Shown here piece after piece: positions 2,444-62,109 of a stretch of DNA of 64,000 nucleotides (positions within the stretch are counted from its first letter, which is position 1; each line of letters opens with the position of its first letter). Source of the stretch: a bacterium (GTDB lineage: Bacteria > Patescibacteriota > Saccharimonadia > Saccharimonadales > Saccharimonadaceae); NCBI GenBank assembly GCA_030530385.1, contig JAUMVB010000003.1, positions 1-64,000 on the forward strand. The letters run 5' to 3'. The notes under the pieces are model-generated. The model saw only the letters and a program-made list of their open reading frames with translations, was not told where the DNA came from and ran no database searches. Made by a program: the position numbers and the translations under genes.

Positions 2444-2473
2444 TTGACAAAACTGTTCGGGGGGGGGTATAAT
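2444..2473 (+). promoter_or_regulatory. Promoter with G9 tract in the spacer (putative phase-variable switch 1)
   Basis: TTGACA (2444-2449), an 18-bp spacer ending in nine consecutive G (2459-2467), then TATAAT (2468-2473). Both boxes are perfect consensus. With G9 the spacer is one base over the usual 17, so G8 would be the predicted optimum. The same design recurs at 60663-60691. Confidence 0.85.
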
Positions 2474-2508: not shown

Positions 2509-3048
2509 GTGAAGAACTTTAACTCATTTAATACTCAGCCAGAACCTTTGGAAAACAAACCAGATAGTTTTAATAATATAACATATGATAAAGCAGGAAC
2601 AAGTCTTGACAATATCGTAGGTGATCTTAGAGACTACCACAAAGAGATGAGCCTTGTTGTTGCCCCTAATTCGCATAAAGATACTTTGCAACAAAGGCTT
2701 TTGGATGAGGGGAGTGCAAAACATGAGCCGATTTCATCTATATTAAAGATGGATAATGATAATTACATTGTTACGTATGCTGGATATATGGGTTTGACTG
2801 AAACTAATAGATATGGTAAAGTGCAACTAGCAGATCTTATTGATATGAGTGATAAGGATGAAGACTTTAATCCGTATAAAGGTCTTACTATTGGTCAATC
2901 AACCAACAGGGGTAATACTCCTTTAGCGCTAACTGTTTTCAATAGAGGAACTAGGTCAGTTGCTGATACCAGTGATAATGCAGGGTATCTGAAATTCAAA
3001 AAAGGTTTGAGTCAACAGATTATGGACTACTACGAAAATATGAAATAG
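2509..3048 (+). CDS. Unknown soluble protein behind the poly-G promoter
   Basis: 179 residues, GTG start at 2509. AAAGGAGA lies only about 3 nt before it, and an ATG at 2507 is followed at once by TGA, so initiation here looks unusual; the next in-frame ATG is near residue 47. No signal peptide, membrane segment or known domain is seen. The N-terminal 45 residues are polar (Asn/Ser/Asp/Pro), followed by a mixed alpha/beta region (ILKMDNDNYIVTYAGYMGL). It is a single-gene unit with its own promoter and terminator. No function is assigned. Confidence 0.7.
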   Translation: MKNFNSFNTQPEPLENKPDSFNNITYDKAGTSLDNIVGDLRDYHKEMSLVVAPNSHKDTLQQRLLDEGSAKHEPISSILKMDNDNYIVTYAGYMGLTETNRYGKVQLADLIDMSDKDEDFNPYKGLTIGQSTNRGNTPLALTVFNRGTRSVADTSDNAGYLKFKKGLSQQIMDYYENMK

Positions 3049-59130: not shown

Positions 59131-59409
59131 TTAAGCAGCGATTACTTCAACTACAGTTCGTCGCTCAGTTTTACCTGTAAATTTCTTTTTAGCGATTTGC
59201 TTAAAGTTTACAACTCCACTTTTAGCGGCGTGGATTGTAAAGTTTCGGCTCATGTAAGTTCCTTCACCAGCTAATTTGGTTGCGCCAGTTTGTCGAACGA
59301 GAACTTCGCCCTCATTGACTTTTTGACCGCCAAATCGTTTTACGCCTAAGCGTTGGCCAGCGTTGTTGTGGATGTTCTTACTTGTACCACCAGCTTTAAC
59401 TTTTGACAT
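59131..59409 (-). CDS. rpmA: 50S ribosomal protein L27
   Basis: 92 residues. KAGGTSKNIHNNAGQRLGVK, then RFGGQKVNEGEVLVRQTG and VTFAAKSG-like IHAAKSGVVNF: clear L27. The N-terminus (MSKVKAGG) is short, without the cleaved extension of Firmicutes L27. It overlaps the methyltransferase gene upstream by 14 bp and is not beside rplU, its usual partner. Confidence 0.95.
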   Translation of the reverse strand: MSKVKAGGTSKNIHNNAGQRLGVKRFGGQKVNEGEVLVRQTGATKLAGEGTYMSRNFTIHAAKSGVVNFKQIAKKKFTGKTERRTVVEVIAA

Positions 59410-60622
59410 TTTTACTCCTTATTAGTACTAATAATTCACGCGCCACAACTTGATTTTCGCGATAATATATTAAATCTTGTGGTTTAACGCGCATAAATTC
59501 TCTCCTATTATAGCCGAGTTCCTCCAAAAAGTCAATAAGCGGAAGGTGAGAAAAATTGCCATTTTGGGTTTTCCAAGCTGGAATAGCAATACAAATTTGG
59601 GCGCCTTCTGGAATTTGATGGGCTAGATTTTTCAAGAAATTCGAGATTATACGATTACAGTTTTCACGCACTTCAGCAAGTTTCTTTGGTGAGGGTGGAG
59701 CAGAGAATGGTTGCCCTAAGTAAGTCTCGCAAACCACGCTTGAAAGTTTTTTTGCAAAACTCCATTTTTCAATTGTAGCGTCAGCTTCGTAAATTTCTCC
59801 AAGTTCACCATGCGGTTTAAATTCTCGTACAAACCAATCACTATTTTCTTTCGAAAATTCCACCATTTTCTCGCTCAAATCGGTTCCATTTGCTTTAAAG
59901 CCTTTTAAAAGTGCTTCTTGAATAACCGTGCCAGTTCCGCAAAAAGGATCGAGGATTTCTGGCTTTTCGAAAGTTTTTTTACCAAAAAGTGCTTGAATCT
60001 GTGGCTGATTTTCTCCGACACCGAGATTGATCATTGTTTGGGCGAGTTTTGGTGGCAGCATCCCAACAAAAGCGTCGCGCTTCGGCCTGTTTTGATCGCG
60101 TCTAGCGTAGCTTGTGATGTTTTGCGCGCCTTCGCTCAATGCGATAATTGTTTTTTTACCGCCACGAACTACTAAAATTTCGATTTTTTTCTCGCTTAAG
60201 CCAAGCTTATTATTGTGCGAAATTGCGGTTGAAAGCTCGGCAGTTTTTGAAGGGATTATTCGTACTGAAACATCGTGGTTTTTAAGCTTTTGTTTAATGA
60301 CTGCTCCAGTTTTCGAAACTTCGTTCGCCCGAATTTTTAAGCCATAAGCTGAAATTCCTAGTGTGATTTTTCCGCTAAAATCCGCAAAATCGTGTTCAAA
60401 AATTTTGGTTATTTTTTTTGAAACATCTCGCCAATCTGTTGAATTGACCTCAAAAACAACTTGGCCGGTTTTTAAAATTGAGCCAAAATGCGAAACATTG
60501 AGTTTTTCGGTTTCAATAAGACAGGCGTAATCACCCAGTACACGAATTTTATCGCCGCCAAAAACACTTTCGAGTTCGGCAATCCCGATACTTGGCTGAC
60601 GCCCTAAAATTGCAATTTTCAT
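59396..60622 (-). CDS. THUMP/Trm11-like RNA guanine-N2 methyltransferase
   Basis: 408 residues. N-terminal THUMP-like part (MKIAILGRQPSIGIAELESV), RPKRDAFVGMLPPKLAQTMI near 190, SAM-binding DPFCGTGTVIQEALLKGFKA near 233 and NGTDLSEKMVEF. A downstream block VVCETYLGQPF stands where many relatives have the catalytic (D/N)-P-P-Y motif, so the active-site reading is not certain. Target is probably tRNA, as for archaeal Trm11. ATG has TATAAT exactly 6 nt upstream (60634-60629). Confidence 0.8.
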   Translation of the reverse strand: MKIAILGRQPSIGIAELESVFGGDKIRVLGDYACLIETEKLNVSHFGSILKTGQVVFEVNSTDWRDVSKKITKIFEHDFADFSGKITLGISAYGLKIRANEVSKTGAVIKQKLKNHDVSVRIIPSKTAELSTAISHNNKLGLSEKKIEILVVRGGKKTIIALSEGAQNITSYARRDQNRPKRDAFVGMLPPKLAQTMINLGVGENQPQIQALFGKKTFEKPEILDPFCGTGTVIQEALLKGFKANGTDLSEKMVEFSKENSDWFVREFKPHGELGEIYEADATIEKWSFAKKLSSVVCETYLGQPFSAPPSPKKLAEVRENCNRIISNFLKNLAHQIPEGAQICIAIPAWKTQNGNFSHLPLIDFLEELGYNRREFMRVKPQDLIYYRENQVVARELLVLIRSKNVKS

Positions 60623-60662: not shown

Positions 60663-60691
60663 TTGACAAAATATCAGGGGGGGGGTAAAAT
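60663..60691 (+). promoter_or_regulatory. Promoter with G9 tract in the spacer (putative phase-variable switch 2)
   Basis: TTGACA (60663-60668), 17-bp spacer ending in nine G (60677-60685), then TAAAAT (60686-60691). At the present length the spacing is optimal. A CACC/GGTG hairpin (60721-60734) lies in the leader just before AAAAGGAGAAGA. Confidence 0.85.
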
Positions 60692-60747
60692 ATAAACATA
60701 AACGAGTTAAGTTAATATTCACCTTTATTGGTGGAAAAAGGAGAAGA

Positions 60748-62109
60748 ATGAAATATAAAATTAAGATCACTGCGATTTTGGTGAGTGTGATTGCTGGTGG
60801 AGCTTTGGTGCGGCCAGCTTTTGCTGATACGCCAAAACAGCTCACAAAGATTTTAACCTCACCAAATATTCAGCTCAAAGCTGACCCAAAAGTAGATAAA
60901 GTTGCGATAGATGATCGCTGGTATAGCTTTGGGATGGATTTTGATATTCAGGAACCAGTCAACCTGGGTGATTACTTTTTTATTTATCAAAAGGGTGTCG
61001 CTGGCATGGGTGAAATCCGAGACTTTGATATAAAAGCTAATGGCAAAACTGTAGCAACCGCTAAGGTCGTTGATGCTAATAAAAATCGGGCATTTTATTC
61101 TTTATACAAAACTGATGCCGCAAGTATTGCTCAGTTCGATGCCTATACTGTAGATGAAGCTGTGCCTTGGAGTAAGTGGAAGGTTACCTTCAACGAAAGT
61201 GTTAAGGGACAAAATGTTAATAAAATAGGTTTTAATTTTTCTAACATTCATGCCGGCTATCCATTGGTAGACTCTTCACCTAACTATGATGTTCGTGCTT
61301 TTGCTACAGTAAATGGCCGAGAAGTGTTTAGCAAACATATTAAAGTTAATGGCGTTGCTAAGAAACTTTCGTACGGTAACGTGGTATGGCGTAGTAGTTC
61401 TAATTTTAATTCTGACACTAAAAAGGGGCAATTAGTTTTTGGCGTAGAGACAAATCGCGATTGGAAAGATGCTAATATTAAAATAGAACTAGAGAAAGAT
61501 TCACCAGTTGTATTCATTAAGGAAAAAGTTGAGAGAAGTAGCGGATCAAACTTTGTTTTTGATGATAGTAATAGAGTTAATGCTGATAAGCTAATTATGG
61601 AGACGCCACGAACTGGCTTTAAGTTTAGCTTTGATAGTGAAGGTTTAACTGGTAATGTTAAAGTTCTGCAGCAGCAAAACTTGAAAAATTCTTCTGGATT
61701 TTATTTCCCTATAGAACTAAACCCTGACCCAGCAGCTCAAGCTAATATTGATTTGGCTAACGGTAAACTCAAGAATATCAAGTATAAAGTTACGGTAACT
61801 GCAAAAGACGGATCGGTGATATTCCAAAGTAGTGGTGTGCATGAAGTGCCAATCAAGGGTATCTTAACTCAAGCTGATCTTGAAGCTATTAGACCAAAAC
61901 TAACCGAACCGGGGAAAAAAGCAGAAACTAAAACTGAAAAGCCAGCTGAAGCTCCTCGCAGCGAGACAGCTCCAAAGACTCCACAAACTGGATTTAAAAA
62001 ATCAGATAACAATGATGTATTCGGTTGGATTATACTAGCCTCGGCTGTTCTTATTGCATTAACTAGTGGTGTAGTCATTTATCGAAAAAAATCAAAAATT
62101 AACTTGTAA
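60748..62109 (+). CDS. LPXTG-type surface protein under the poly-G promoter
   Basis: 453 residues, ATG after AAAAGGAGAAGA. Signal peptide about 1-27 (ILVSVIAGGALVRPAFA-D). The ectodomain of about 340 residues is beta-rich with no Cys (WYSFGMDFDIQEPVNLGDYF; VPWSKWKVTF), like the tandem Ig/adhesin-type domains of Gram-positive surface proteins. A Pro/Glu/Lys/Thr stalk (about 385-410) leads to the sorting motif TPQTG (411-415), a hydrophobic span and the tail YRKKSKINL. The first position of LPXTG is Thr instead of Leu. Likely an exposed adhesin or ligand whose expression can be switched. Confidence 0.88.
   Translation: MKYKIKITAILVSVIAGGALVRPAFADTPKQLTKILTSPNIQLKADPKVDKVAIDDRWYSFGMDFDIQEPVNLGDYFFIYQKGVAGMGEIRDFDIKANGKTVATAKVVDANKNRAFYSLYKTDAASIAQFDAYTVDEAVPWSKWKVTFNESVKGQNVNKIGFNFSNIHAGYPLVDSSPNYDVRAFATVNGREVFSKHIKVNGVAKKLSYGNVVWRSSSNFNSDTKKGQLVFGVETNRDWKDANIKIELEKDSPVVFIKEKVERSSGSNFVFDDSNRVNADKLIMETPRTGFKFSFDSEGLTGNVKVLQQQNLKNSSGFYFPIELNPDPAAQANIDLANGKLKNIKYKVTVTAKDGSVIFQSSGVHEVPIKGILTQADLEAIRPKLTEPGKKAETKTEKPAEAPRSETAPKTPQTGFKKSDNNDVFGWIILASAVLIALTSGVVIYRKKSKINL

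Follow-up and report, generated by a model that had tools for sequence, protein, structure and literature searches.

The final nine bases of the spacer in a sigma-70-type promoter near position 60,663 of the window (the whole 64,000-nucleotide stretch of Saccharibacteria DNA analyzed here) are all G, and this G9 tract is very probably a phase-variation element controlling an exposed sortase-type protein (Table 1). In the proposed mechanism, replication slippage would add or remove one G in the tract, the one-G change would shift the -35/-10 distance from the 17 bp found at G9, and the altered spacing would switch transcription of the gene between strong and weak. The genome would contain two such switches, and promoters of this kind would form a set for exposed proteins that spans the genus and the family. 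Slippage inside the strain, an effect on transcription, and a role in varying the surface that contacts the host are inferred. A previous sequence-only reading had described TTGACA, a 17-bp spacer ending in G9, and TAAAAT, an arrangement that the sequence confirms. It had also proposed that slippage controls the promoter of an exposed protein, which is still the best interpretation of the sequence. Support comes from a second tract promoter, enrichment in the family relative to a reversed control, conservation of the tract promoter at this locus in sister species, tract-length differences between homologous promoters, the absence of MutS, and the strong enrichment of exported cargo.

Table 1. 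Tract promoters, associated genes, and orthologous promoters in the genus (positions are those of the window; G000 is the genome of the window).
Feature	Genome	Position	Strand	Description
-35 hexamer	G000	60663-60668	+	TTGACA
Spacer, 17 bp	G000	60669-60685	+	AAATATCA + G9
G9 tract	G000	60677-60685	+	Final nine bases of the spacer
-10 hexamer	G000	60686-60691	+	TAAAAT, directly 3' of G9
Shine-Dalgarno-like site	G000	60739-60743	+	AGGAG
Start codon	G000	60748	+	ATG of the tract-driven gene
Gene under the tract promoter	G000	60748-62109	+	453-aa protein with an N-terminal hydrophobic signal-like segment
Sorting-signal-like motif	G000	61978-61992	+	TPQTG, then a TM segment and the basic tail RKKSK
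Methyltransferase-type gene	G000	59396-60622	-	Conserved, divergent; anchors the locus
Second promoter, -35	G000	2444-2449	+	TTGACA
Second promoter, G9 tract	G000	2459-2467	+	18-bp spacer, AAACTGTTC + G9; TTGACA-N9-G9-TATAAT at 2444-2473
Second promoter, -10	G000	2468-2473	+	TATAAT
Gene behind the second promoter	G000	2509-3048	+	179-aa orphan starting MKNFN
Orthologous promoter	G000			TTGACA-N8-G9-TAAAAT; cargo LPXTG-like protein
Orthologous promoter	G001			TTGACT-CAT-GGGGAGGGGGGGG-TGA-TAAACT; cargo pilin-type gene (FTVIEVVLVLAIAG)
Orthologous promoter	G003			TTGACA-AAAGGATTA-GGGGAGGG-TAGAAT (N9 before the tract); cargo pilin (PF07963, E 1.2e-5)
Orthologous promoter	G004			TTGACG-TTTA-G9-TATGG-TAAAAT; cargo signal-peptide protein
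Pilin-type copies	G001	C24, C31, C55, C65, C81 (L208-L212)		TTGAC-CAT/TTC-Gn-TGTGATAAACT; all near contig ends

The 5' leader of the gene carries a small inverted repeat (CACC-TTTATT-GGTG, 60720-60733) just 5' of the Shine-Dalgarno site. An Rfam search of the promoter region gives no match, and the leader was not found in viral contigs. The product had been taken for an LPXTG-type exposed protein. Its signal-like N-terminus, transmembrane segment and RKKSK tail agree with this, but the sorting-like motif is of the TPxTG type rather than canonical LPxTG, and the Pfam LPXTG anchor model does not match the protein. A sortase is encoded in the same genome (PF04203, G000:C1:81206-81619, E 5.8e-30). 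The protein itself falls into no clear Pfam family, and a search for relatives in GTDB and IMG/VR contigs returned none. Within the genus, a distant homologue (27% identity) is found in one member only, G004, where it lies at a different locus without a tract. An AlphaFold model made without an alignment reached a pLDDT of 34 and was set aside.

The second tract promoter, at 2444-2473, had been overlooked. Both promoters thus hold a homopolymer of at least 8 between -35 and -10, with G9 in a 17-bp spacer in one case and in an 18-bp spacer in the other. The orphan protein behind the second tract has no signal peptide or recognizable export signal in its sequence, and it is the exception here, since the cargo is exposed or host-interacting both for the 60748-62109 gene and at the orthologous loci. 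Its MKNFN start is shared with two tract-driven proteins of G004 (L205:838 and L282:567), which hints that such starts may mark a second class of switched proteins lacking signal peptides. Close to this tract lie a KGG-repeat-like protein (1465-1722) and, on the minus strand, a HELAH-type metallopeptidase-like protein (1777-2229), a neighborhood that suggests a variable island.

Long G runs are rare in this DNA. The window contains 15 G runs of length 5, none of 6 to 8, and two of 9, and these two are the sole G or C runs of at least 8 in the whole 628,076-base assembly. About two G runs of 8 or more per genome are expected from base composition alone, so that what is non-random is not the number of runs but the placement of both between a perfect -35 and a -10. 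At the composition of the window, a given G run has a probability of about 3e-6 of lying directly before TAWAAT with TTGACA ahead of it at 15-19 bp, and both runs have this placement. The expected number of runs would fit a chance run. An assembly or sequencing artefact could also be imagined, as poly-G artefacts exist (for instance in two-colour chemistry) and some related contigs end or carry N gaps at tracts. Nevertheless, chance or artefact is a very improbable origin: both runs stop exactly at the -10 with the -35 in place, and the pattern recurs far above its reversed control in many independent assemblies and on both strands, with hardly any trace in viral contigs.

Within the family, 394 Saccharibacteria genomes were searched for GGGGGGGTAWAAT. 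This pattern matches 65 times, in 42 of the genomes, and its reversed version 5 times; the pattern searches admitted spacers of up to 20 bp, and the resulting sets are samples rather than censuses. In half of the 65 matches, a -35 with no more than one mismatch to TTGACA stands at a spacing of 14-20 bp; the tracts of the 65 are mostly G9-G10, within a range of 7 to 20. In GTDB genomes at large, TTGACA-N5-12-G8-TATAAT occurs in at least 119 stretches, and in IMG/VR viral contigs it occurs once. Among the matches listed are gut Bacilli, Clostridia, Spirochaetes, Streptobacillus, Helicobacter, Streptococcus and Saccharibacteria. When a slightly looser pattern is applied to 29 of these genomes from outside the phylum, 133 promoters are found and the reversed control yields none. 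Gut Bacilli, Clostridia and Streptobacillus carry many tract promoters (L070-L188, G418-G446), and two genomes have 19 each. The proteins encoded downstream are enriched in exported forms: an N-terminal hydrophobic segment is present in 87 of 114, compared with 170 of 640 ORFs elsewhere on those contigs (p 9e-24), and the cargo families include BspA-type LRR, InlB-type repeats, Big_2, LPXTG, YSIRK, MucBP and pilins. For Saccharibacteria alone the enrichment is modest (30/62 vs 12/45 in the window, p ~0.03).

The position of the switch is conserved in the genus. In four of five members (G000, G001, G003 and G004), a tract promoter lies in the intergenic region upstream of the methyltransferase-type gene, and the gene that it drives differs from one species to the next. 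The fifth, G002, has an amylase-like gene and no tract at this locus, and 25 loci of the methyltransferase gene from other genera have no comparable tract upstream. A tract at the same site in four of five members, with differing cargo, indicates that the switch is an old feature of the locus in the genus; it would stay in place as the cargo gene changes between species. It is not kept everywhere: G002 has none, and the tract of G003 is interrupted (GGGGAGGG) at a spacing of 17 bp, which should make slippage difficult and the tract likely a locked form. The promoter at 60,663 might likewise be a relic, an ancestral switch now fixed ON in this species, as its spacing is also 17 bp. This is unlikely, however, because the tract here is pure, is nine bases long, which places it inside the range that is variable in other bacteria, and sits in a genome in which MutS is absent.

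Phase variation by slippage is also supported by tract lengths that differ between promoters of common descent. Such differences, which shift the spacing, are seen in relatives rather than in this promoter itself, and the comparisons are between species or paralogues, not inside one population. The homologous promoters L060 and L061, with flanks 92-97% identical, have G8 and G7. Other homologous pairs differ in the same way: L055/L056 (G8 vs G9), L025/L050 (G15 vs G10), the L112 copies (G10 vs G9) and L127/L138 (G8 vs G9). The five tract-driven pilin-type copies of G001 range from G8 to G12, with -35/-10 spacings of 14 to 20, and G004 has three tracts of one architecture, with G9, G10 and G14. 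None of the five genus genomes, G000-G004, which are 86-99% complete, encodes the core domain of MutS (MutS_V); in a control set, 11 of 14 were positive. In meningococci, mononucleotide slippage becomes about 1000-fold more frequent once mutS is lost (PMC3639595), and variable homopolymers are those of 8 or more (PMC5084427). Without mismatch repair, the G tracts of these genomes should be especially unstable.

The sequence-only reading predicted the promoter to be ON at G9, based on an optimum of 17 bp. The tract-free promoters of the window are consistent with that rule, five of six having a spacing of 17 bp, from which the promoter at 60,663 would be predicted strong at G9 and the one at 2,444 somewhat weaker. 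Elsewhere, however, G-tract promoters avoid this spacing. Exactly 17 bp is found in only 7 of 123, compared with 15 of 30 tract-free controls, a significant dip that persists after clustering of the spacers. The main peak is at 18-19 bp with a smaller mode at 15-16, whereas 17 is the commonest spacing of promoters without a tract on those contigs. A simple rule equating 17 bp with ON may therefore fail for poly-G spacers, whose true optimum is uncertain. Most populations may be in a sub-optimal state, one slip away from ON; alternatively, the optimum itself may be shifted by poly-G. Because the geometry of poly-G could have this second effect, the dip need not mean that the promoters are strictly OFF by default.

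The same geometry could mean that the tract does not switch at all and that its role is structural and fixed: as A-like, stiff DNA, the poly-G spacer would tune the strength of the promoter or serve as a binding site for a regulator. The unusual spacings could be accounted for in this way, and so could the clustering of tract lengths at 9-10. Such a fixed element is nonetheless distinctly unlikely, because tract lengths span 7 to 20 and are unequal in promoters whose flanks are nearly the same, and because the non-G parts of the spacers are unrelated between clades, leaving no conserved binding site. The cargo is also exposed and fast-evolving, and proteins of this kind are the classic phase-variable class. 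Slippage-driven switching remains the preferred reading.

The poly-G slippage mechanism is already known from other bacteria; as far as checked, what is new is the lineage, the broad distribution, and a conserved switch at which cargo is exchanged. The closest parallel is porA of Neisseria meningitidis, in which a poly-G tract in the -35/-10 spacer before an exposed protein gives graded expression at 11G, 10G and 9G (PMC3639595). The promoter described here differs in that its tract abuts the -10, its -35 is the consensus TTGACA, it belongs to a Saccharibacterium that lacks MutS, and at a conserved locus the cargo varies between species. In Treponema pallidum, the gene of the OmpW-like protein tp0126 also has poly-G between -35 and -10, with an optimum at 17 nt in total (PMC7864442). 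There, both phylum and cargo are unrelated, and the passage cited describes no orthologous promoter series with swapped cargo. Invertible promoters of gut bacteria (Jiang et al. 2019, cited in PMC11868660) likewise turn surface genes ON and OFF at the promoter level, but they do so by recombinase-driven inversion and have no slippage tract. For Saccharibacteria and the CPR, no report of phase variation was found in the openly licensed literature, which is weak evidence of absence, and it goes unmentioned in a 2025 study on the type IV pili of Saccharibacteria.

Saccharibacteria are obligate epibionts with tiny genomes. Their type IV pili mediate host binding (PMC12206443). A tentative view, slightly less likely than not, is that in these bacteria dispersed poly-G switches, unstable without MutS, may serve as bet-hedging of host contact through pilins, sortase-type proteins and MKNFN-type proteins, that cargo is exchanged at a conserved locus, and that the design is general and largely undescribed in uncultured gut bacteria, with spacers about one base off the 17-bp optimum. 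The finding bears on how Saccharibacteria alter or conceal their surface where it touches the host bacterium. A poly-G switch before pilins and sortase-type proteins would be a testable source of cell-to-cell heterogeneity. Finally, the wide occurrence of the design suggests that promoters with homopolymer switches are frequent among uncultured gut bacteria, where they can be scored from existing reads.
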